From a virus, in IMG/VR virus record IMGVR_UViG_3300045970_000271, positions 1 through 27,363 of that record: a DNA stretch of 27,363 bases; one strand, 5' to 3'. The position numbers were made by a program, and so were the translations under genes. A model generated the notes under the pieces. That model worked only from the letters and a program-made list of their open reading frames with translations. It did no database searches and was not told where the DNA came from. Positions 1 to 27,363 of this stretch are shown one piece after another (position 1 is the stretch's first letter; the number at the start of each line of letters is the position of its first letter).

Positions 1-1200
1 ACCAACACTCTTAGTGATAACTGGTGTACCGTAAGCAGTCCAATTCCTGTACTTGGTAATAGCAAACTTAGGTGGTCTAGGATTAGATGTCGATGTCGCA
101 GTAAATAAATGTCCAGATATACTACTTGAAAAAGATGCCGTGCTTGTAGACGAAGTTGAGCATGTTACGGTGTATGTTGTTCCCGTTGATGGAACTTCTC
201 TTGACCATTGCAAAATCTTTGCTGAACCAGATGCCACTACATAAGCATATTTGTTATTTGGAGTTATTGCTACCCCGTATAAAGCAGTTCCAGCACCATT
301 TGATGTTGTGGAAATTAGAGTTAATTGACCACTGCTAGTATTCCTACTATATTGAAATATGTTATTTGATCCGTATGTTGCAACATATACGGTTAAACCA
401 TCAGGTGAAATACTAATTTCTTGAGGATTAGTAGTACAAGAAATATCACGAGTTGAGAGTGCTGTTAACAAACCGGTAGAACTATTTCTACTATATTGAC
501 TAACAACTGATGAACACACGACATAAACATGAGCCCCGTCTGGTGATATACATACGAACTTTGTTGCACCTCCAGCAGTTGCAACCGTTGGTGAACTAAG
601 GGCAGTAAGAAGACCAGTTGTTGAATTACGACTATATTGTTGCAATGTTGCGGCACTATAGTTAGCAGAATATACGTGGGCACCATCTGGTGATATACAT
701 AAACCTACAGGCGACCCACCAGTCCCAACTGTTGCTGGGCTAAGTGCTGTTAATACACCTGACGTTGTATTCCTGCTAAATTGACTAATTGTATTATTAG
801 AGAGATTTGTACAATATACATGATTATTGTCAGGGGATACTTGACACCAAAATCCAGTCTTTGTTCCTACTGTTGCAGGGCTTAGTGCAGTTAATAGTCC
901 AGTCGTAGAGTTCCTACTAAACTGCGACATCATGTTAGTACCACCGTTATTTGCTACATATACGTGATTACCATCCGGTGCAACCGTAACCATATTTGGT
1001 GATGTACCAGTTGTAACAGATACAGGTGATAGAGCAGTTAGTAATCCAGTTGATGAATCAATACTAAATTGTGATGAACTTGCTGAACCCGCATTAGCCG
1101 TGTATACGTGCTTACCATCAGGTGAAACAAATACGCCAGTTGGTGTAGCACCAGTTGATAAACTGGCTGGAGAAAGTATTGTTAAATTACCTGTTGCCAT
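1..1200 (-). CDS. Seven-bladed beta-propeller (YVTN/lactonase-like) virion-associated protein, 3' end cut by window
   Basis: The minus-strand frame is open from an ATG at 1200 to the window edge (400 codons, no stop), so the C-terminus is missing. The first ~340 residues consist of seven repeats of about 45-50 residues with the pattern SPDG-HVY-AN near the middle and QFSRN-TTGLLTAL at the end; the seventh is more divergent. This is the layout of YVTN/6-phosphogluconolactonase-type seven-bladed propellers. After blade 7 comes a Ser/Thr-rich linker and a further domain beginning near residue 365. The gene lies at the far end of the tail-fibre/decoration cluster, 1 nt after the previous stop, so a role as a receptor-binding or tail-tip accessory protein is inferred. 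No catalytic assignment is possible. Alternatives are a carbohydrate-binding or lactonase-like enzyme carried on the virion. Confidence 0.85.
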   Translation of the reverse strand, partial: MATGNLTILSPASLSTGATPTGVFVSPDGKHVYTANAGSASSSQFSIDSSTGLLTALSPVSVTTGTSPNMVTVAPDGNHVYVANNGGTNMMSQFSRNSTTGLLTALSPATVGTKTGFWCQVSPDNNHVYCTNLSNNTISQFSRNTTSGVLTALSPATVGTGGSPVGLCISPDGAHVYSANYSAATLQQYSRNSTTGLLTALSSPTVATAGGATKFVCISPDGAHVYVVCSSVVSQYSRNSSTGLLTALSTRDISCTTNPQEISISPDGLTVYVATYGSNNIFQYSRNTSSGQLTLISTTSNGAGTALYGVAITPNNKYAYVVASGSAKILQWSREVPSTGTTYTVTCSTSSTSTASFSSSISGHLFTATSTSNPRPPKFAITKYRNWTAYGTPVITKSVG

Positions 1201-1201
1201 T

Positions 1202-1495
1202 TTATGACTTACTAATATTGTTCATAGCCACACCATTTACTGTTATATCTATACCATCGTTAACGTTGAATGTTGTGCCGCTTGTTACTGTATATGTAAT
1301 AACTGGGAATGAAGATAAGTCTCCATACAGTTCTTGGGCTAACGCACCTGCCTCAATATTTGTAAGGGTTGTTTGACCATCCATCACAACATTAGATAAA
1401 ACTGAGGGGACTCCTTGTGTGTATATTGTTATAGGTTCACTGCCTACTGTGAAGAAAATCAAATCCTCTTTAATCGTATCGTGGATAGTTGTCAT
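1202..1495 (-). CDS. Small protein of unknown function in tail accessory cluster
   Basis: A 97-residue protein, acidic in its first half, with no recognised domain, signal peptide or membrane segment. The ATG at 1495 is chosen because AAGGGCG lies 5 nt upstream; a TTG 12 codons further up has no such site. It ends 1 nt before the propeller gene, so the two are probably co-transcribed and co-translated. A strong hairpin terminator separates it from the upstream gene, and a TAAATA promoter-like motif sits in between, so this pair looks like its own transcription unit. Possibly a partner or chaperone of the propeller protein; that is inference from position only. Confidence 0.6.
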   Translation of the reverse strand: MTTIHDTIKEDLIFFTVGSEPITIYTQGVPSVLSNVVMDGQTTLTNIEAGALAQELYGDLSSFPVITYTVTSGTTFNVNDGIDITVNGVAMNNISKS

Positions 1496-1517
1496 AGATT
1501 CGCCCTTAGTTACTGAT

Positions 1518-1525
1518 ATATTTAG
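1518..1525 (-). promoter_or_regulatory. TAAATA late-promoter-like motif (CTAAATAT)
   Basis: CTAAATAT on the minus strand, 22 nt upstream of the ATG at 1495 and just downstream of the terminator at 1535-1560. It matches the core of motifs found in most other gaps of the late region and resembles the T4-type late promoter TATAAATA. Confidence 0.45.
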
Positions 1526-1534
1526 TAGCAAATG

Positions 1535-1560
1535 AAAAAGGCGACCTCAGTCGCCTTTTT
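1535..1560 (-). terminator. Rho-independent terminator, bidirectional
   Basis: A perfect 11-bp stem (AAAAAGGCGAC / GTCGCCTTTTT) closes a CTCA loop and gives a T5 tract on either strand. It lies 18 nt after the stop of the 1579-1968 gene and ahead of the next promoter-like motif. The hairpin core is nearly the same as that of the terminator at 25032-25055. Confidence 0.85.
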
Positions 1561-1578
1561 ATGTAACTATATTAGTTG

Positions 1579-1968
1579 TTAAGCGTAAGCAACCTTCATA
1601 GTTGCCTGAATGCTGTCGCCTGATGCTAAGTTAACAACTGGAAAAGTTGCTGACATATACATATTGCCAGCAGTAGATGCATCAAATAAACCTGCCTCAT
1701 CAACTGCAATTGACGCACCAGCCGTAACTAATCCAACTACTTGATATGTGTCATTAGATGTCGTTGTAGTAGCTACAGACGATGTGCCTGTTGCACGAGT
1801 GCTATATTGAGTAGATAATGCTGAGTCAGCAGCGGAAGCAGTGCGAGCCGCTCCTGTTGCGCCTGTGCCTACTCCAAGATATACAGGCTCAGTGCCTGTT
1901 CCTTTGATGCGGTTAGCAGTAATTGCTCTGCCGCTGTTTGTTAAAACTGTTCCTGTTCCGAATGCCAT
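1579..1968 (-). CDS. Phage structural protein, fibre/decoration type
   Basis: A 129-residue protein rich in Gly, Ala, Thr and Ser. The N-terminal pattern (LTNSGRAI-ANRIKG-GTEP-YLG-GTG) and the C-terminal GLFDASTAGNM-MSATFP are typical of small phage tail-fibre or virion decoration proteins that sit after the tail-tip gene. AAGGAA lies 7 nt upstream of the ATG. The start overlaps the 3' end of the preceding small gene by 28 nt. It shares its style, including a FDA/YDAATAGN signature, with the 2133-2531 product, so the two are probably distant paralogues. The exact position in the particle is not known. Confidence 0.7.
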   Translation of the reverse strand: MAFGTGTVLTNSGRAITANRIKGTGTEPVYLGVGTGATGAARTASAADSALSTQYSTRATGTSSVATTTTSNDTYQVVGLVTAGASIAVDEAGLFDASTAGNMYMSATFPVVNLASGDSIQATMKVAYA

Positions 1969-2129
1969 AATATGGTTTCCTTTATATTTGTATTGCTATC
2001 TGATGTAGCACTTATTGTTTGATTTGGTGCGTAGCGAGCCACGACACCTAAATCCTCTATAGTTCCGTTAGCACGAATTACCACAATTGATAATTCTGCT
2101 TCTTTTACTGTTGCTGTCGCGTTATTCAT
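1941..2129 (-). CDS. Small hypothetical protein (62 aa) between two fibre-like proteins
   Basis: ATG at 2129, 3 nt after the upstream stop codon, so translation is probably coupled; no clear ribosome-binding site is seen. It fills the only gap between the two fibre-like genes. Residues 13-30 read VVIRANGTIEDLGVVARY, a short beta-rich stretch. The last 28 nt overlap the next gene, and its C-terminal residues are read from the ribosome-binding site and first codons of that gene, which suggests the C-terminus is under little constraint. No known family is recognised. Confidence 0.5.
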   Translation of the reverse strand: MNNATATVKEAELSIVVIRANGTIEDLGVVARYAPNQTISATSDSNTNIKETILWHSEQEQF

Positions 2130-2132
2130 TGA

Positions 2133-2531
2133 TTAAGACAATGTAATAGTTACGCCACCAGCCGCTACAGATGCTGTATCACCTGCCAAAATGTTTTTAG
2201 CTACTGTCAACACGCCAAAGCCTAAGCAATTGCCTGCTGTAGCAGCATCATATAAAACACCATAAGTTAAATTTGCACCTGATAACCAATCTGCTGAAGC
2301 AGCGGTGAACGTAATTGCACCAGTGTTAGTAATAGCACCTGCTGCCGCAGTGCCCCAAACGCCTGCTGTAGCCACGCGAGCATAAGCACCGCCTGTTGGT
2401 TCAGTTACGTTAGTTCCACCCACTGTAGGAGTTGTTGAAGATAGAGCCAAATATGTAGTTGGCATTGTGTAAGCGGTCTTTCCGACCTGATGTTCGAGCA
2501 AGGAATTTGCTAAGAAAGTAGTTGCAGGCAT
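2133..2531 (-). CDS. Phage tail fibre-like structural protein
   Basis: A 132-residue protein with the signature of a widespread class of small phage structural proteins: TYLALSSTTPTVGGT near residue 26, EPTGGAYARV near 44, a central AGAITNTGAITF block and GVLYDAATAGN near 89. Such proteins usually lie next to tail-fibre genes and are annotated as tail fibre or virion structural proteins. AAGGAGA lies 7 nt before the ATG. The gap upstream, after the GIY-YIG gene, carries a TAAATA motif. It is related in pattern to the 1579-1968 product. Confidence 0.7.
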   Translation of the reverse strand: MPATTFLANSLLEHQVGKTAYTMPTTYLALSSTTPTVGGTNVTEPTGGAYARVATAGVWGTAAAGAITNTGAITFTAASADWLSGANLTYGVLYDAATAGNCLGFGVLTVAKNILAGDTASVAAGGVTITLS

Positions 2532-2580
2532 TGTTATGTCTCCTTAATAATTATTTGTTGAGGCAATCTTTGCCTTCAGT

Positions 2581-2967
2581 TTATTTATCCTTTGATTTCT
2601 TTTCCCTCATAGCAGCCTTCCACTTTAATGTTCTGTCTGCAAGAGCCTCAGCGGTGTCTGTATGCTTATATCCAGCAATTCCTTCACCACCATCTGTCTT
2701 ATTAAGTAATGGCCCTTTACCTAAGTCTTTCCTACCGATAATATTGATCAAATGCATTTCAAGATCAAATGCACCTTGCTCTGAATCTTGTTTATAGATC
2801 ATTGGTTCCATAGAAAACCCTTCTTTTGATCTCTTTTTATTCACATTCGCTAAATGATGTTTACCCCATTTATGTTTCCAAGCACGATCTTCACAACCTT
2901 TACCTATGTATATAGGCAGATTTGTTTTTGGGTCTTTATAGACGTATGTGTAGAATTGTTGTGTCAT
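2581..2967 (-). CDS. Free-standing GIY-YIG homing endonuclease, short form
   Basis: A 128-residue protein with an N-terminal GIY-YIG nuclease domain of the LEM-3-like type. Visible elements are Y6-T-Y8, the YIGKG motif at 20-24, Arg28 (DRAWKH), Glu70 in the FDLE helix and GR at 78-79, followed by N89-x-TDGGEG. These positions correspond to the Tyr, Tyr, Arg and Glu of the GIY-YIG active site, so it should be catalytically intact. It stops soon after the domain and lacks the NUMOD3 repeats of its three paralogues. It is closest to the nuclease at 20482-21120, including a 30-bp identical DNA stretch. AAGG precedes the ATG by about 7 nt. It sits between two intact virion genes and is not inside an intron. 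Confidence 0.85.
   Translation of the reverse strand: MTQQFYTYVYKDPKTNLPIYIGKGCEDRAWKHKWGKHHLANVNKKRSKEGFSMEPMIYKQDSEQGAFDLEMHLINIIGRKDLGKGPLLNKTDGGEGIAGYKHTDTAEALADRTLKWKAAMREKKSKDK
2582..2589 (-). promoter_or_regulatory. TAAATA late-promoter-like motif (GATAAATA)
   Basis: GATAAATA on the minus strand, overlapping the stop codon of the GIY-YIG gene and about 50 nt upstream of the 2133-2531 gene. It belongs to the family of TAAATA motifs in late-region gaps. Confidence 0.35.
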
Positions 2968-3062
2968 AACTTACCTTAAGTTGATACCCTTAACCCCAAG
3001 TAATGGGAGGGAAGCAAACGGGTAAGCATTTGTTTTCGTCCTGCAGGAACTATCCCTACAAT
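2968..3062 (-). promoter_or_regulatory. Non-coding leader of GIY-YIG gene, similar to leader at 24921-25004
   Basis: About 95 nt between a TAAATA motif and the nuclease start. It aligns to the leader of the GIY-YIG gene at 24174-24920: both have TAGGGATAG just after the motif, then AAACAA 14 nt later, then a small hairpin (here CAAATG / CGTTTG) and a CCCT stretch. It also holds a palindromic TCCTGCAGGA. A role in timing or attenuating nuclease expression is inferred. Confidence 0.4.
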
Positions 3063-3070
3063 TATTTATC
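3063..3070 (-). promoter_or_regulatory. TAAATA late-promoter-like motif (GATAAATA)
   Basis: GATAAATA directly after the TAG stop of the upstream gene, about 95 nt before the GIY-YIG start. It heads the shared nuclease leader. Confidence 0.45.
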
Positions 3071-3432
3071 TATCGCGTAATCTCTCTATTAATTATAAAA
3101 GTTCCTTTTGATGGCTTATATACTTTTCCGAGAGAACTAACAATTTCGAGGTCATAGAAAGCTTCTAACGTATCATCTTCCTTATTAGCGAATTTGATAC
3201 CTTTTGTTTCATCAGGGGTAAAGAACCAAATGATCGTATTCAATGCAATTACTAATTGAGCATTCTCTGTTGTTGCATCAATAATTGCACTTGTATTTCC
3301 ATAACTGCGACGAACTTGTGCTCTTGCAGTAAACCCACTTAAATCAAATACCGCTCCATCCGTATCCAAAAGAGTGAATGTATATGCGTATGTACTGCCT
3401 TGATCTATCGTTATATTCTTAATATTTGTCAT
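3070..3432 (-). CDS. Baseplate upper protein-like (BppU-type) structural protein
   Basis: A 120-residue protein with the pattern of small Ig-like phage baseplate/tail proteins: an IDQGSTYAYTFTLLDTDG start, DLSGFTARAQVRR near residue 31, a central variable strand region, then FYDLEI near 91 and a closing GTFIINREITR. Related proteins are found downstream of tail-fibre genes in many siphoviruses and are thought to link fibres to the tail tip. AGGGA lies about 9 nt before the ATG at 3432. The assignment is by pattern, not by a catalytic motif. Confidence 0.65.
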   Translation of the reverse strand: MTNIKNITIDQGSTYAYTFTLLDTDGAVFDLSGFTARAQVRRSYGNTSAIIDATTENAQLVIALNTIIWFFTPDETKGIKFANKEDDTLEAFYDLEIVSSLGKVYKPSKGTFIINREITR

Positions 3433-7000: not shown

Positions 7001-8753
7001 CTTTGAATAGGCGAGGGCTAATAGCACCTGTAAATATTACATCTGCACCAACGGAAACACTAATAGCACCACCGCTAAATGAGACAGAGAATGTATTAGT
7101 AGCAGTTGCAGATACTGTGCGATTGTAAATTGTTACTCCATCACTACCTACCACATCAAATGTATTACCTGCGATAACGCTAACTGCACGATCAAGATTA
7201 ATTGTTGATGTAGACCAAGAAGTAACTTTAGCCTCGTTCATTACCGAGGCATAGTCTGTGTCCATTAACTTAAACACTTCGCCAGGCTCAAACCCAGCAT
7301 TAGCAAAACCAACAGTAAATGTAACCGAGTCTGTATTATTAACACCCGTATCAACAACCCACTTTGCTTTACGCATTGCCTGACCTTCGGTTGTAATACC
7401 AATGCCAGTTGTTTCATTCACATTTAGCCCATATCGTGATGTTGCTGCTGTATCCTCGTAATAGCAAGGAACGCTTAACCAATTCTCTGCTGGGTTATTC
7501 CAATAAACAATAGCAGCGGATGATCTTGTATCGCCTGGAGATGAAACATAGGAAAATAAACCATTTTCGACATTTGAGTTAGTAATGATTCGTGAGTAAC
7601 CAGTAGGACGATCTTGAACTAACTTAACTCTGTTACCTGATGTATACACGACTGCATTAAATGTAGCTGCTACATTTTGAATAGTTGTCCATGCACTTTC
7701 CTGTGTCATGAATTGATAATTGAACGTATAACGCGGTTCTGTGCCGCTAATAGAGCCCATTACTAATGCAGGCACATATCCATCGTTATATACCGCAGCG
7801 TCATAAAACGAGTATTGATCAATATCGCTTGCTTGTATAACGTTACCCATTCCGTGCGAGTCATTAGTTAGCAAGTCATATAACACCCATGCTGGGTTAT
7901 CACATACTTCAGGTAATGACTTAAATGTGCCATCCCATGTACCGCTATAACTGCGAGTTGATACTGTATAGTTAGAAGGAACTTTAACCTTAATTCCGTA
8001 ACTGTCCATCGCTACCAATGGATAACTTGATCCTGTTGCTTCCGCAGTTACAGTTAACCCAATTACGGCTCGATTGTTATATGACTTACTTACGAGTTGA
8101 ATTTCAGCAACTGCCTGTAAGTAGATATCATTAGCCAAAGTCATTGCTGAGTTATCAGCAGTAATACGAACTACCTTAATAGACCAAGTGCCTGTTCCTG
8201 ACGGACGATCAATCATATAATCGCAATCAGCAGGTGAGGTGCATTTATCGTTCTTAGTAATTGTCTTAACTAAACTAAATGCACCTGCACCTAGTCTACG
8301 ATGTATCTCAAAACTTACAGATGTTCCTGTCGTATCTCCATTTGTTTGTTGGGCAAATAGTGCAGGGAATCTAATTGTCACACGCATTGCATCAGGTGCA
8401 GACGTAGATGAGGTATATGTAACAGATGTCCCTGTTGTTACCTTAGCACCTACATTGTATGTAGATGAAGCAGACGGATAACCGCTCATTACAGACTGAG
8501 AAGGTAATCCATATCGTTCATCTAACGAGATATTACTAAAATTTGTCGTTCCATTTGCATTCATTACAGGCACATTATTGAAGTAAACAGATTTCAATTT
8601 GTTAGACTGATCCGCTAAACCTCCAACTTCACCATCACTTGTAAGAAATATTACTCGTGCAGTGCTTTTAGATATAAGAGTATTTGGTGAATCTACAGGT
8701 GTATCTCCACCGCCACCGCCACCCATACCAACAATATTTTCTATTTGTTTCAT
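4035..8753 (-). CDS. J: Tail tip / host specificity protein, lambda J-like
   Basis: A 1572-residue protein, the largest in the window and longer than lambda gpJ (about 1130 aa). It opens with a Gly-rich stretch, then a STARVIFLTSDGEVGGL segment typical of J proteins and a hub region to ~610 that contains the CTSPADCDYMIDRP segment. Three fibronectin type III-like domains follow at about 622-716, 730-835 and 838-930. After that come low-complexity AAGTITAAEI-type repeats with two related RGL-IK-A-GT motifs. Residues ~1250-1416 look like a jelly-roll carbohydrate-binding module (DGWTFYGPAGG... SVRLTTYSDTW), and a C-terminal ~155 residues are probably the receptor-binding tip. It follows the I-like gene by 3 nt. 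Role: central tail hub and receptor recognition. Confidence 0.92.
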   Translation of the reverse strand: MKQIENIVGMGGGGGGDTPVDSPNTLISKSTARVIFLTSDGEVGGLADQSNKLKSVYFNNVPVMNANGTTNFSNISLDERYGLPSQSVMSGYPSASSTYNVGAKVTTGTSVTYTSSTSAPDAMRVTIRFPALFAQQTNGDTTGTSVSFEIHRRLGAGAFSLVKTITKNDKCTSPADCDYMIDRPSGTGTWSIKVVRITADNSAMTLANDIYLQAVAEIQLVSKSYNNRAVIGLTVTAEATGSSYPLVAMDSYGIKVKVPSNYTVSTRSYSGTWDGTFKSLPEVCDNPAWVLYDLLTNDSHGMGNVIQASDIDQYSFYDAAVYNDGYVPALVMGSISGTEPRYTFNYQFMTQESAWTTIQNVAATFNAVVYTSGNRVKLVQDRPTGYSRIITNSNVENGLFSYVSSPGDTRSSAAIVYWNNPAENWLSVPCYYEDTAATSRYGLNVNETTGIGITTEGQAMRKAKWVVDTGVNNTDSVTFTVGFANAGFEPGEVFKLMDTDYASVMNEAKVTSWSTSTINLDRAVSVIAGNTFDVVGSDGVTIYNRTVSATATNTFSVSFSGGAISVSVGADVIFTGAISPRLFKVIGVTEASTGKYEVAAVEYDPNKFGRVDNTPTGPTPVYQTPVTIPSAPLNLAFREASTNVNNVIHRSLMISWTRPSQGIVSSYVLRYRRSATSWVEVPLTTSSYELSNVLEGTYEVQVYAVNAVNGVIGPDATGTYTISSAGGGASPLNAPTTLQIIGGGTTFSGMDINFSWVNPSTNSTVAATLKDFDVRFIETTGSTTVRTEYIKSVNAGQTQTFSYTYSMNMADSGPRRNVQVQVRCRDSNNNISNPVTATFNNPAPVAVTGLTTNGGFQGINLKWNTIADNDFAGYLIWRDVASTFTPSAANLIADLDSNAFLSAGLADGTTYYYKVAAYDHFTAESDKANATGLNVSASASGTTSSPNNTNEYKLTGIIWTPNSPSTNYVSWTSCTASKTQGSGLGTTWAVSAGNAAWTSGMLYIYLTEGSSTLSATSTITNAIATNKMIVATYRGGTSLEYGDGNAYMDGGFILAGTIGSSQLVTGSAVITGSAQIANATINDAHITGLLTAAKIDTRGLTIKKADGTLLFDSGGTPTKWTSTYITPDAGWLNSNVTLTGLGAGTFASLSKITSANATTYIDGAAIGTAQVGILTANNIGADTIDASKIAAGTITAAEIAAGTITGDRIATNTITATQIDARGLSIKDANGTVILSAGSVLGSDDSAHMGFNSSYAAWSGASTGTAPDGWTFYGPAGGTIAKTTSNTHNAPHSVRLTTYSDTWAVKGYTYTKPLPAGSYITGTCSMFMVANVGGGKPQFLVRLYTNSSLTQMVDNWVPITDNTVSGWQDMAFTANAIVSGVAKPIYKIEIYLIPSYSVMPGGIPNNGTMVDYGPFNFTVNQQINSSNASTFIADLAVNTLQIAGNAITFPVSVKTTSDIVCNRYSTTVILDCYVDVQGAPIWICAMGAAPLVSGGGSGVSFTLYPKVSIWVDGVQQIETNLEGPFAISTSVSGGGNRHIELRGISQYIDGITGTGTSIVKSGASLFAIGTKR

Positions 8754-24173: not shown

Positions 24174-24920
24174 TTATATTGCTTTTTCTGTGAAACTAGC
24201 ATACTCTTCTTTTGATATGTAGTAATACTCTTTTGGGCGGGATTTTATCCTATTCCAAATAGTTGATATGTTTATATTATTGGCATTTGCAGCTATTGTT
24301 GGTGAAGCGTATGGACCAGTATGTGTCATTATTGGTTTTTGTTTTGCTAAGGATAGTTTTGCTTTATGTTCAGCAGATAGAGTTTTTCCTTTTTTGTAGG
24401 AATGATTTCTACCTTTATGTTCAGCAGATAGAGTTTTTCCTTTTTTGTAGGAATGATTTCTACCTTTATGAGATACTGACATTTTTATTTTAGTTTCTAC
24501 AGAAAATATTTTGCCTTTGTTAGCAGCAGACTTTTTTGCTATAACTTCTGGTCTATTCTGTGCCTTTATATTTGCTTCTGATATTTTCGCCTTATGCTCC
24601 GCAGAAGGAGTTATTCCTTTTCTCGATGGTGGTGAATCACCACCAGCAGTTATGTTAAATAACGTTCCTTCGCCTGTCTTTTCTCTACCATATTGTTCAA
24701 TCCAAACTTCTTCCATAAAGTGTGCGTGTTTCTCATCTACTTCGTTATGAATAATTGGTTGCGGGTTATATCCTTCACTTATTCGTTTTCGAAGTAAGTT
24801 ACCTATCCTTGTATTTTCTTTTAGGTGCTTCCAAGCTCGTTTATTACAACCTTTACCTACATATATAGGCAGATTTGTTTTTGGGTCTTTCCAAAGATAT
24901 GTGTAATATTGATTTGTCAT
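24174..24920 (-). CDS. GIY-YIG homing endonuclease with NUMOD3 repeats and C-terminal HTH
   Basis: At 248 residues, the longest of the four. Nuclease domain: Y6-T... Y8, YVGKG at 20-24, Arg28 and Glu70/71, intact. NUMOD3-like repeats fill ~100-195 (SAEHKAKISEANIKAQ; SVETKIKMSVSHKGR; SAEHKAKLSLAKQK). The C-terminal ~40 residues (SPTIAANANNINISTIWNRIKS) look like a small helix-turn-helix of the kind found at the end of homing endonucleases. A 17-residue block (starting RNHSYKKGKTLSAEHK) is exactly duplicated in tandem. GAGG lies ~7 nt before the ATG. It is paralogous to 16688-17248; the upstream leader resembles that of 2581-2967. Confidence 0.9.
   Translation of the reverse strand: MTNQYYTYLWKDPKTNLPIYVGKGCNKRAWKHLKENTRIGNLLRKRISEGYNPQPIIHNEVDEKHAHFMEEVWIEQYGREKTGEGTLFNITAGGDSPPSRKGITPSAEHKAKISEANIKAQNRPEVIAKKSAANKGKIFSVETKIKMSVSHKGRNHSYKKGKTLSAEHKGRNHSYKKGKTLSAEHKAKLSLAKQKPIMTHTGPYASPTIAANANNINISTIWNRIKSRPKEYYYISKEEYASFTEKAI
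24363..24470. repeat. 51-bp tandem duplication inside GIY-YIG gene
   Basis: A 51-bp unit occurs twice with no mismatch, followed by 6 more matching bases. It keeps the frame and duplicates one 17-residue NUMOD3-like DNA-binding repeat. Exact identity indicates a recent event. Confidence 0.95.
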
Positions 24921-25004
24921 AATGTTGCCTCATTTGTGCCGCTTATTAGTAGGGCAGCAAGTGGGCATCACTTGTTTTTGGACTCGATTTCCTATCCCTA
25001 TAAG
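24921..25004 (-). promoter_or_regulatory. Non-coding leader of GIY-YIG gene, similar to leader at 2968-3062
   Basis: Shares TAGGGATAG, AAACAA, the hairpin (here CAAGTG / CACTTG, a perfect 6-bp stem) and TTGCTGCCCT with the leader upstream of 2581-2967, in the same order and nearly the same spacing. Confidence 0.4.
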
Positions 25005-25012
25005 TATTTATG
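25005..25012 (-). promoter_or_regulatory. TAAATA late-promoter-like motif (CATAAATA)
   Basis: CATAAATA heads the nuclease leader, about 84 nt upstream of the GIY-YIG ATG and 19 nt after the terminator of the H-NS-like gene. Confidence 0.45.
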
Positions 25013-25031
25013 CATCGACAAACAGGCGCAA

Positions 25032-25055
25032 AAAAAGCGACCTAAGTCGCTTTTT
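25032..25055 (-). terminator. Terminator of H-NS-like gene
   Basis: A 10-bp stem (AAAAAGCGAC / GTCGCTTTTT) with a CTAA loop, 16 nt after the stop at 25072, T-rich on the minus strand. It is nearly identical to the terminator at 1535-1560. Confidence 0.85.
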
Positions 25056-25071
25056 GTAGAGGGTTTTTTGT

Positions 25072-25494
25072 TTACTCTTTAACAAGAAAATCCTCATATT
25101 TGGCTCCATTTTCCACTAAATCAGCAAGCCATCCTTCAACTCTTCCCTTGCCAACTTTTGATTTGGTGTAAATGTGACCAGTTGCAGGGTCTTTAAAAGA
25201 CCTACCCCATAGTTCTCGCGGAAAATTGCTCTTAGTGCCTTTGCTTGCACCTCCACCACTACGTGCAGCACGAGAACCTAACGCCTCAATTCCCTCTGCT
25301 TTTGTAAAGCCTTTTGTCTCTAATGACTCAACAAAGAGGGAACAGATTTCTTTCAGTTCTTCCTTGCACAGTAAACCCCAATCACCACTTTGGTGTTTAG
25401 CAAGTAGTTCAAGTGGTTGCAGTTCATTTTCGCTAAAAAACGCTAAGGCGTTTCTTGTAATGACTGTTTGACCAAGTTTGAAAAGTGCTGACAT
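25072..25494 (-). CDS. Chimeric protein: plasmid-related-protein N-terminus and H-NS-like C-terminus
   Basis: A 140-residue protein. Residues ~4-45 (LFKLGQTVITRNALAFF..., PLELLAKHQSGDWG) match the first half of a ~90-residue family often named plasmid-related protein. The second half of that family is missing. Residues ~90-138 (SFKDPATGHIYTKSKVGKGR, then WLADL, then EDFLV) have the pattern of the H-NS family DNA-binding domain, YRDPATG-x-W-x-G-G-R-P-W. A Gly/Ser/Arg linker joins the halves. CGGAGC lies 6 nt before the ATG. It has its own promoter with an operator-like repeat and its own terminator. A role in silencing or anti-silencing is inferred from the C-terminal domain only. Confidence 0.7.
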   Translation of the reverse strand: MSALFKLGQTVITRNALAFFSENELQPLELLAKHQSGDWGLLCKEELKEICSLFVESLETKGFTKAEGIEALGSRAARSGGGASKGTKSNFPRELWGRSFKDPATGHIYTKSKVGKGRVEGWLADLVENGAKYEDFLVKE

Positions 25495-25519
25495 AAAGTG
25501 CTCCGTTGGTTAGTGAAAT

Positions 25520-25545
25520 TAACAAACGGACTAGTCCGTTTGTTA
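25520..25545. repeat. 26-bp perfect palindrome in leader of H-NS-like gene
   Basis: Two 13-base arms (TAACAAACGGACT and its complement) meet without a loop, centred on CTAG. It lies 25 nt upstream of the ATG at 25494. No T tract follows, so it is not a typical terminator; it may be an operator or an RNA hairpin that controls translation. Confidence 0.9.
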
Positions 25546-25549
25546 CACA

Positions 25550-25583
25550 GTAAACAGATAGGACTAGAGTCCTATCTGTTTAC
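25550..25583. repeat. 34-bp inverted repeat in leader of H-NS-like gene
   Basis: Perfect 16-bp arms (GTAAACAGATAGGACT) around a 2-nt centre, 4 nt from the previous palindrome. Both palindromes share a GGACTAG core, so they may be related binding sites. Confidence 0.9.
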
Positions 25584-25591
25584 AAGCACTT

Positions 25592-25620
25592 ATTTTGCTA
25601 TCACTTTGATAGCAAGTCAA
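25592..25620 (-). promoter_or_regulatory. Promoter of H-NS-like gene with operator in spacer
   Basis: -35 TTGACT (25620-25615), 17-nt spacer, -10 CAAAAT (25597-25592). A 21-bp inverted repeat with 9-bp arms (TTGCTATCA / TGATAGCAA, 3-nt centre) at 25595-25615 fills the spacer, where a bound repressor would block RNA polymerase. Confidence 0.55.
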
Positions 25621-26335
25621 GCATTAAAAGAATTTCAGCATGATTTATGAGCAAATATGGCTTTCTCAGTATGTAGAAGGCAGGTTTCACTATAAGTTAT
25701 GCTGAAAATAACTCATTCTCTTGACATGTTCTATAGACGCGGAATTGCAAGAACATACTAATGTACTATCTGCTCTGTAAATGTGAAATTAGGGTCAAAA
25801 AAGTGGCACGACAGGCATGAAGAATGCAGGTTTTTCCACCTGTTTTTCAATGGGTACCTTTGCAAATACAGTGAATTACCTTAGTGGTTTTCACAACATC
25901 GAAAAAAAATTTAAATGGCTTGACAGATGAAACGGTAGGGTACCCTTTTGATTAGCCCCAGTTTTTAAATTGTGAACTAAACCTATTACCTGAGTTGACC
26001 TTTTGATACCCAGGTTTGAAAACTGTCAAGACATTTTTGACTACCGCCAAGCAGATCACCAACCTAAACGCGGTATACCCCAGCCTGTCAATCGATATAT
26101 CAGATATATTTCGCCTCCAACCTATTGACAGATTTGAATCACTGTGGCCTTATGATGACCTACCACACCACCTGTATCAATGTGTGGCATATCTTGTAGC
26201 ACTGTGTGGTGAATGGTGATGCACGGTCACCAATGGTGACGTGTGCGTAACCTATTGATATCATTGAGCAATATCAAACGCTTATCTGACCATCACTGAC
26301 CGTCTGCCCCATAGTTTGTATATGTAGTTATGGGT
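25621..26335. other. Gene-poor control region with promoter-like hexamers and small palindromes
   Basis: No convincing gene. TTGACA occurs at 25721, 25920 and 26125 on the plus strand and at 26029 and 26091 (reading down) on the minus strand. Inverted repeats: TTTCAGCAT / ATGCTGAAA (25633-25641, 25699-25707), AGGGTACCCT (25937-25946), GTCACC-AAT-GGTGAC (26226-26240), TTGATAT / ATATCAA (26255-26277). The region could be an early control region or replication origin; the sequence alone does not decide. Confidence 0.5.
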
Positions 26336-26400
26336 CGTAACTTAGTTACATCATAGGCTATGGTATTAATAGCATAGAATAAGTTAGTAACTAAGTTACG
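26336..26400 (-). promoter_or_regulatory. Paired operator-like palindromes with adjacent TTGACA
   Basis: Two 13-bp palindromes, GTAACT-T-AGTTAC (26337-26349) and GTAACT-A-AGTTAC (26387-26399), have centres 50 bp apart and form a perfect 14-bp inverted repeat overall. Between them is a 20-bp near-palindrome (26358-26377, arms CTATG / CATAG around TATTAATA). A minus-strand TTGACA (26407-26402) lies 2 nt from the right-hand site, which would then fall in the promoter spacer; the -10 is weak. Confidence 0.6.
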
Positions 26401-26582
26401 ATGTCAAGCCATACCAGACTGAATAGGCCTGTCTCTATGATGTCAAGAACTGTTACATATTTCACTGTACCTATCGGCATATAGATTAGGTTGTTATTCA
26501 ACCATACGCCGTATCGTATATCAACCATTTGGTAGAACAGCCTATCGCACACGCTAACTATTTTTGGTATCGGCAAGTCCAT
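26391..26582 (-). CDS. Possible small hypothetical protein (63 aa)
   Basis: ATG at 26582, with AGGGAT about 9 nt upstream. The 63 residues are hydrophobic in places (IRYGVWLNNNLIYMPIGTVKYV) but show no known domain. The frame contains two TTGACA hexamers and ends inside an operator-like palindrome, so part of it serves another function. It is flanked by inverted copies of a 16-bp element. It could equally be non-coding. Confidence 0.3.
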   Translation of the reverse strand: MDLPIPKIVSVCDRLFYQMVDIRYGVWLNNNLIYMPIGTVKYVTVLDIIETGLFSLVWLDIVT

Positions 26583-26898
26583 ACCGATATCCCTAATGGG
26601 TCAGAGGCGGCTATTGATACCATAGCATTGATCTACCTAGATAACCTAATCTATTAATCACAATGTCGATGGTTGTTACGAACACTTACAATTGAACTAG
26701 ATATCGATTTCTTCTGATTATTCAAAATAAGTCAAATAGAGTCAGACTGAAAAGACCTGATATAGACTTGACAGGTCAGCATGAAGGGGATGATTATTCG
26801 AAGGTTACTAAAATAGTGCATGAATGGTTGAGAAGGTTTTGAGATGCACTAAAAAAGTGCAGGGGCGCTAGTCAAGTGCAGTCGCCCTCATCGTCATC
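26583..26898. other. Gene-free stretch with TTGACA and AGTGCA repeats
   Basis: No gene seen. Contains a plus-strand TTGACA at 26768 with GATTAT 18 nt later (a fair sigma70 match), and four AGTGCA hexamers between 26815 and 26880, one inverted, that form a 6-bp hairpin with an A5 loop (26845-26861). It lies 3' of the helix-turn-helix gene. Confidence 0.5.
26610..26625. repeat. Inverted copy of the 16-bp element at 26358-26373
   Basis: The minus strand here reads CTATGGTATCAATAGC; 26358-26373 reads CTATGGTATTAATAGC on the plus strand, 15 of 16 identical. The two copies flank the possible 63-aa gene. Confidence 0.7.
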
Positions 26899-27345
26899 TT
26901 AGTCCCCATACACCGTCCCATTGTCTCCCCTACTGCGTGGAGCCTCCACTCCAATAGGAGCCAAGTTCTTACCCGTCCTATTGCTTGGATCAAAAGAATA
27001 GCGTTGCATCTCAAAACCCTCGCTCTCAAACTTCCTTTTCCAACGCCATACCGTTTCCCTTGCACAACCAATCTTACGTGCAGTTTTCGATGAACTCCAA
27101 CCGCACTCTATTAGCGTAGCAAGCACAAGCTTCTGCCAATCGCTTTTGTATGTAGGCAGCTCTATCTTCTTAACTGCTGTATCAAAACTAACTTTGGTAA
27201 TGTCTTTTGTCATAATCTTATTTACTTGTATCGTTTGACCTGCTGTATCAAAACTAACTTTGGTAATGTCTTTTGTCATAATCTTATTTACTTGTATCGT
27301 TTGACCTGCTGTATCAAAACTAACTTTGGTAATGTCTTTTGTCAT
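26899..27345 (-). CDS. Helix-turn-helix DNA-binding protein with repeated N-terminus
   Basis: The core domain is a helix-turn-helix (WQKLVLATLIECGWSSSKTA, then RKIGCARETVWRWKRKF) like those of homeodomain-like regulators or transposase N-termini, followed by a short polar tail. Upstream, a 22-residue unit starting MTKDITKVSFDTA is repeated because of a 66-bp DNA tandem repeat; each copy brings its own ATG. Possible starts are 27345, 27279 and 27213; the last gives a plain 104-residue protein and is the simplest. The frame stays open to the window edge. No catalytic transposase domain is present, so a phage regulator is more likely. Orientation places it towards the control region. Confidence 0.65.
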   Translation of the reverse strand: MTKDITKVSFDTAGQTIQVNKIMTKDITKVSFDTAGQTIQVNKIMTKDITKVSFDTAVKKIELPTYKSDWQKLVLATLIECGWSSSKTARKIGCARETVWRWKRKFESEGFEMQRYSFDPSNRTGKNLAPIGVEAPRSRGDNGTVYGD

Positions 27346-27363
27346 AATCTTATTTACTTGTAT
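27174..27363. repeat. 66-bp tandem repeat, about 2.9 copies, cut by window end
   Basis: Exact period of 66 bp from 27174 to the last base. Each unit contains, on the minus strand, GTAAATAAGATT followed by ATG, that is a TAAATA core and a start codon. The length is a multiple of three and no stop codon is created. The true number of copies is unknown. Confidence 0.95.

Follow-up and report, generated by a model that had tools for sequence, protein, structure and literature searches.

The three palindromes found at positions 25520-25620 of this phage DNA are real and likely regulatory features of familiar kinds. The best explanation that we can offer for them, with confidence somewhat short of even, is that a repressible promoter is combined with stabilizing 5′ stems on a single small minus-strand unit. 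According to this model, the stretch would control one small minus-strand transcription unit composed of promoter, leader, gene (25494-25072), and terminator (Table 1). A repressor dimer seated on the 21-bp repeat between the promoter hexamers would block RNA polymerase. Cooperativity or looping could come from two further operator copies, ~760 and ~1010 bp upstream. Once the repressor is released, the mRNA would begin just before hairpin 1 so that its 5′ end is a stable stem, and a second stem would follow 4 nt after the first, with a linker bearing the ribosome-binding site (RBS) beyond it. Such a stem-capped 5′ end would be expected to resist 5′-end-dependent decay as ompA does, giving a long-lived message for an H-NS-like fusion protein. 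The analysis itself shows the palindromes, the recurring operator core, the positions of these elements, and the predicted fold, and from these we infer the use of the promoter, its start site, the repressor, and the stabilization of the mRNA. A weak point of the mechanism is that the GGAG of the RBS is only partly open in the RNA predicted to start at 25585 (0.25-0.54 per base).

Table 1. Features of the locus, in window positions. "KLGQ" is a label coined in the present analysis for the N-terminal family of the controlled gene.
Feature	Position	Strand	Description or basis
Predicted sigma-70-type promoter	25592-25620	minus	TTGACT 25620-25615, 17-nt spacer, CAAAAT 25597-25592; 9 of 12 positions
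Candidate operator O1 (21-bp inverted repeat across the whole promoter spacer)	25595-25615		9-bp arms, 3 central bases; core GCTAT-N7-ATAGC
O2, second GCTAT-N7-ATAGC copy	26357-26373		Between the 15-bp arms of an inverted repeat at 26335-26401
O3, third GCTAT-N7-ATAGC copy	26610-26626		Core recurrence
Leader hairpin 1 (predicted)	25550-25583	minus	34-bp inverted repeat, perfect 16-bp arms, 2 central bases; the longest among short-loop inverted repeats in G001; 0-4 nt past predicted start
Leader hairpin 2 (predicted)	25520-25545	minus	TAACAAACGGACTAGTCCGTTTGTTA, perfect 26-bp palindrome (13-bp arms)
Ribosome-binding stretch TAACCAACGGAG	25501-25512	minus	TAACCAAC and GGAG kept in relative G003
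Controlled gene (140 aa) with a KLGQ segment at the N-terminus and an H-NS-like C-terminal domain	25072-25494	minus	Alignments, profiles, fold search
Terminator-like hairpin 3′ of the gene	25032-25055	minus	AAAAAGCGAC-CTAA-GTCGCTTTTT; inverted-repeat listing

The window, meaning the whole stretch of DNA that was analyzed, is a phage record (G000) of 27,363 bases in which long frames lie mostly on the minus strand. A second record of the phage, G001 (38,102 bases), shows 2 mismatches to the window over 24,470 aligned bases and is identical to it over another 2,965 bases that include the palindrome region. The records end at different places, which makes an assembly artifact in the palindrome region unlikely. 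Both ends of G001 are matched by window bases 24344-24470, which suggests that the two records together describe a circular genome of ~38 kb that has an uncertain repeat number at its join. G001 starts and ends inside a NUMOD3 homing-endonuclease-like gene (24174-24920) that carries 51-nt internal repeats. TerL relatives in genome contigs come from Leptothrix (66%), Sapientia (60%), and Variovorax (56%), all of which we take to belong to the order Burkholderiales. Therefore, the phage host is probably a member of this order, and probably not Escherichia coli.

The description in the original prediction of three consecutive palindromes, the first two sharing GGACTAG, is exact. Among inverted repeats of G001 with loops of at most 12 nt, the longest arms are those of hairpin 1 (16 bp) and hairpin 2 (13 bp), followed by arms of 11 bp. 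When G001 was shuffled 40 times with dinucleotide frequencies preserved, the longest arm was 12 bp in one shuffle, 11 bp in two, and 10 bp or less in 37. The 21-bp repeat is ordinary by length alone, as other 9-bp arms are present in the genome. The intergenic region 25495-26898 as a whole holds 11 inverted repeats with arms of at least 6 bp and loops of at most 9 nt (200 shuffles: mean 3.5, maximum 10). All 29 arm positions of the two long palindromes form Watson–Crick pairs, with no G-U; arms of this kind would also fit a recent palindrome-making mutation or recognition at the DNA level. We also observed that CTAG is scarce in G001 (L015, L016), with 28 sites compared to ~149 expected and 24 of the 28 in the first 14 kb. 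Two CTAG sites lie at the centers of the two long palindromes.

The 21-bp repeat does lie in the spacer of a TTGACT/CAAAAT promoter, as had been proposed. It covers the entire 17-nt spacer (25598-25614) together with one base of the −35 element and three of the −10 element. The promoter assignment itself fares less well: both hexamers and the 17-nt spacer are present, but the match is not significant alone, given that 10 promoter-like sites occur in 25000-27363 (shuffle mean 6.1, SD 2.4). The core of the repeat, GCTAT-N7-ATAGC, is found three times in the 38-kb record (window 25597, 26357, and 26610). Since all three copies are confined to the 1.4-kb intergenic region, the 21-bp repeat is probably a true operator, which we list as a candidate. 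Only 2 of 1,000 shuffles of the intergenic region reach three copies for any 5-bp half-site at any spacing from 0 to 15, and this count lends sequence support to the notion of a repressor at the promoter. Because the core recurs beyond the shuffles and the hexamer evidence is weak, we grade the operator as likely and the promoter only as plausible. The relative G003 carries a single copy of the core, at 32037. Across the whole of G001, a different half-site and spacing, TTCCT-N7, has five copies, and it can be seen in the 51-nt repeats that the homing endonuclease gene carries.

The original prediction named the helix-turn-helix (HTH) protein of 26899-27345 or the H-NS-like protein as possible regulators, and nothing that we examined ties either protein to the sites. 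The HTH protein matches HTH_23, with transposase families below the cut-off, and these matches are uninformative as to what the protein binds. Its gene contains a 66-bp tandem repeat at the window end (27174-27363), of which there are three copies here and two in G001. This reflects either an assembly end effect or variation in copy number, and alters the N-terminus of the HTH protein. A search of viral contigs with TTGCTATC-N5-GATAGCAA matched 18 stretches, one of which is the present phage. Six of the other 17 have common flanks and come from AT-rich phages, where the site sits directly 5′ of a small gene. Of the 17, at least four are located within long frames, two carry two core sites, and none carries three. 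No repressor could be named from these viral-contig matches.

Other features of the intergenic region are given here as separate observations. The ~1.4 kb of 25495-26898 has no open reading frame longer than 67 aa and is a candidate control or replication region. TTGACA occurs eight times within it, whereas 1,000 shuffles gave a mean of 1.2 and a maximum of 5; the complete 38 kb has 21 copies. By eye, the eight copies are without good −10 boxes. The sequence GTAACTNAGTTAC is present twice (26337 and 26387), on either side of one operator copy. A replication origin in this region was considered and rejected, as the extremes of cumulative GC skew in G001 (bases 111 and 36,292) fall outside. Within G001 1100-3300, there are one-mismatch DnaA boxes only and no exact one.

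If the promoter is used, transcription is predicted to start near 25585, and hairpins 1 and 2 would occupy the leader up to the linker bearing GGAG, which is located 6 nt before the ATG at 25494. The leader folded from this start has a z score of −6.98, and none of 200 shuffles is as stable, which supports the earlier suggestion that the leader RNA is structured. Among 100-nt segments of G001 (step 10, both strands), the top 14 by stability all come from this locus and from G001 8019-8120 (L015). The latter, outside the window, is a 25-bp perfect inverted repeat with a 52-nt center in a gene-poor stretch (fold z −9.6). At the other end of the unit, a terminator-like hairpin follows the gene, so that the transcript appears to be monocistronic and to have stems at both ends; a terminator scan did not include this hairpin in its output. 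Rfam 15 gave six matches up to E 5 on 24900-27363, each well below its gathering score, and our literature search found no paper on phage leader palindromes or hairpins in combination with H-NS. Our preferred reading of the two long palindromes is that they are predicted 5′-leader RNA hairpins, and we favor a putative role in mRNA protection over one as DNA operators.

It is nevertheless worth considering that all three palindromes are DNA operators, with several repressor dimers covering the promoter and start region to block transcription. The symmetry of the double-stranded DNA is perfect, the sites are spread from the −35 element to about +65, and the third repeat acts like a recurring operator. 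Furthermore, both long palindromes carry GGACT at the apex, a coincidence equaled in only 406 of 200,000 arm shuffles. However, arms of 13 and 16 bp exceed usual operator half-sites, which are shorter. The centers of 0 and 2 bp would also rotate the half-sites differently, and because of this 2-bp difference one dimer cannot fit both palindromes alike, which makes them poor sites for a single DNA-binding dimer. The whole arms are not significantly alike (362 of 5,000 shuffles), a result on which we also rejected a common origin for hairpins 1 and 2. The prospect that these sequences recur elsewhere in the genome was borne out for the core of the spacer repeat, which has two more copies, but not for GGACT-N0-4-AGTCC, which is found nowhere else in the phage. 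Nor is this pattern in excess in three bacterial genomes with terminase relatives (21 forward occurrences versus 65 for a reversed-pattern control). Thus, we consider it unlikely that the long palindromes serve as operators.

Another possibility is that the long palindromes have no function and arose recently, by template switching or duplication, in a phage where perfect inverted repeats tend to form. Every pair is perfect, the arm of hairpin 2 resembles the adjoining RBS stretch at 10 of 11 positions, G001 contains the other 25-bp perfect inverted repeat noted above, and the long palindromes are missing from the relatives examined. Specifically, in the eight other leaders of the KLGQ family that were examined, each taken as the 160 nt preceding the match, neither hairpin is present and the best arms are 5-10 bp. 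The operator core and these hairpins are likewise found in none of 13 terminase-related loci, which are genome parts whose leader may lie outside; one of them (L025) holds a 14-bp-arm repeat of unrelated sequence. Protein scans of viral and genome contigs yielded no examined locus with the palindromes apart from G001, and DNA searches of phages and plasmids returned only a weak plasmid match (36 bases, E 0.9). The sole second copy, in G001, is identical there and offers no sequence change for covariation. The leader is thus specific to the present phage in what could be searched. Against a neutral origin, two such palindromes side by side exactly between a predicted promoter and an RBS would be in an improbable place for junk, and long perfect palindromes in DNA tend to be unstable. 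We regard an absence of function as improbable.

The sequence around the RBS raises two further possibilities, both involving alternative pairing. The first is that translation depends on the start of the transcript: AAGUGCUU, located just upstream of the predicted start, pairs with GAGCACUU across the Shine–Dalgarno region, such that a read-through RNA would be silent, whereas the local RNA, without AAGUGCUU, would be translated. Folding predictions agree in part. The last three bases of GGAG are open at 0.25-0.45 when the RNA starts at 25585 and at 0.00-0.11 when it starts at 25720 or 25800 (mean 0.33 for 25585 and 0.04 for 25720). The logic resembles that of the start-dependent helices that control T4 genes e and I-TevI, as outlined in PMC3014915. 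However, the first G of GGAG shifts the other way, toward greater openness (from 0.54 to 0.92), the helix is just 7-8 bp (runs of at least 7 occur in 138 of 3,000 shuffles), and the scheme rests on putative read-through and a predicted start. We therefore judge this control quite unlikely.

The second possibility is that the leader is a five-segment RNA switch, in which segments 1 and 2 and segments 3 and 4 are paired while the RBS (segment 5) is open, and in which loss of segment 1 stops translation. If segment 1 were cut off or occupied, the shared GGACUAG/CUAGUCC would let segment 2 pair with segment 3, and the freed segment 4 would pair with the RBS stretch, a copy of the 5′ arm of hairpin 2, turning translation off. 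The first 11 bases of TAACCAACGGAG have 10 positions identical to this arm, and a likeness of at least 10 is reached by 17 of 2,000 linker shuffles and 4 of 3,000 genome 25-mers. Folding predictions are consistent with strand exchange. Nonetheless, among 400 controls in which the palindromes had random arms, 126 dropped as far after a cut in hairpin 1 and 49 after a cut in hairpin 2; by ratio, 131 did so with segment 1 held open and 13 on both cuts. Because random-arm palindromes behave likewise too often, strand exchange is not claimed, and we view such a switch as very improbable.

The gene that the leader would control appears to encode a fusion. Residues 2-49 align to a 90-aa KLGQ family protein of the relative G003, and residues 44-139 align to an H-NS-like protein that G003 encodes separately. 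Plasmids commonly carry the N-terminal family: the G003 protein has 171 plasmid records, and among those listed several are named "type I restriction endonuclease subunit M." The C-terminus is probably H-NS-like by several weak signals from sequence and modeling, none conclusive singly. PF00816 matches below its cut-off of 25.6 bits both for the window protein (E 0.0062, 16.7 bits) and for the H-NS-like protein of G003 (E 4.6e-5, 23.5 bits). Profile matches of the window protein include Ler (2lev, E 0.053) and H-NS (2l93, E 0.66), whereas PHROG and NCBIfam gave no match. The top Foldseek match is again 2l93, the C-terminal domain of Salmonella H-NS, at E 0.45, and the structure model is of low overall confidence (pLDDT 60) but reaches 82-89 in ten-residue blocks over residues 91-140. 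The N-terminal oligomerization domain of H-NS was not found, in that no H-NS N-terminal model matched and residues 2-49 are the KLGQ segment. The original prediction overlooked the fusion and the terminator-like hairpin. Its account of the anatomy holds, and its account of the mechanism holds in half.

Comparison with G003 suggests how the fusion arose. G003 carries a KLGQ gene and a tyrosine integrase gene at one contig end and an H-NS-like gene at the other. Because both contig ends carry the final portion of the integrase gene, the three genes are taken to be neighbors across the join. G003 is a temperate relative in which separate KLGQ and H-NS-like genes flank the integrase. The tyrosine integrase family PF00589 matches G003 and has no match in G000 or G001. 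In DNA alignment, the window gene first tracks one G003 gene, that of the KLGQ family, including its RBS (TAACCAAC..GGAG), and from there on tracks the H-NS-like gene; the two alignments overlap by 8 bases at the junction, where both G003 genes read AAAGAGGA. This suggests a deletion between 8-bp repeats, by which the integrase would be lost and the genes on its two sides joined in frame. The opposite route, insertion of an integrase, is possible but would need to complete both genes. The controlled gene is the apparent product of a fusion that accompanied the loss of the integrase in an ancestor. Separately, the leader of the G003 KLGQ gene (L036:3590-3625) contains TAAACAGAT, which is also present in the arm of hairpin 1. 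A different, short hairpin lies beside this sequence in G003, and the fold of the G003 leader has a z score of −2.55.

If our explanation is true, it shows how an H-NS-like gene is maintained as its own switchable unit with a long-lived message in a phage in which no tyrosine integrase was found. The G003 comparison adds a plausible single step that could both remove an integrase and make a new two-part DNA-binding protein. We consider the chimeric gene and the missing integrase to be more instructive than the control elements.

Among known systems, the nearest functional model for the leader, by analogy, is the 5′ stem-loop of E. coli ompA mRNA, which resists 5′-end-dependent decay; its role as a stabilizer is reportedly the subject of papers by Emory, Bouvet, Arnold and Belasco. 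The ompA 5′ untranslated region has a stable stem a few nucleotides from the 5′ end, a second hairpin, and an RBS linker, as the predicted leader does here. In contrast, the present leader has no known sequence relation to ompA and comes from another host, and its start and any gain in half-life are predictions. Lambda-type promoter operators are similar in having a dyad core of ~17 bp in the promoter spacer and further copies nearby. However, the half-site here is GCTAT, the extra copies are 0.76 and 1.0 kb away, and no tyrosine integrase (PF00589) was found in the present phage. The leaders of T4 genes e and I-TevI (PMC3014915) resemble this one in that a strand that can hide the Shine–Dalgarno sequence lies upstream of the predicted start of a local promoter, whereas here the helix is short, its statistics are weak, and two extra hairpins are present. 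Finally, phage-encoded H-NS is known from EPV1 (Skennerton 2011, PMC3097231) and is also described in PMC7074111. The present gene is comparable to that of EPV1 as a phage gene with an H-NS-like DNA-binding domain, but its H-NS-like part scores below the Pfam cut-off and is fused to an unrelated N-terminal segment.
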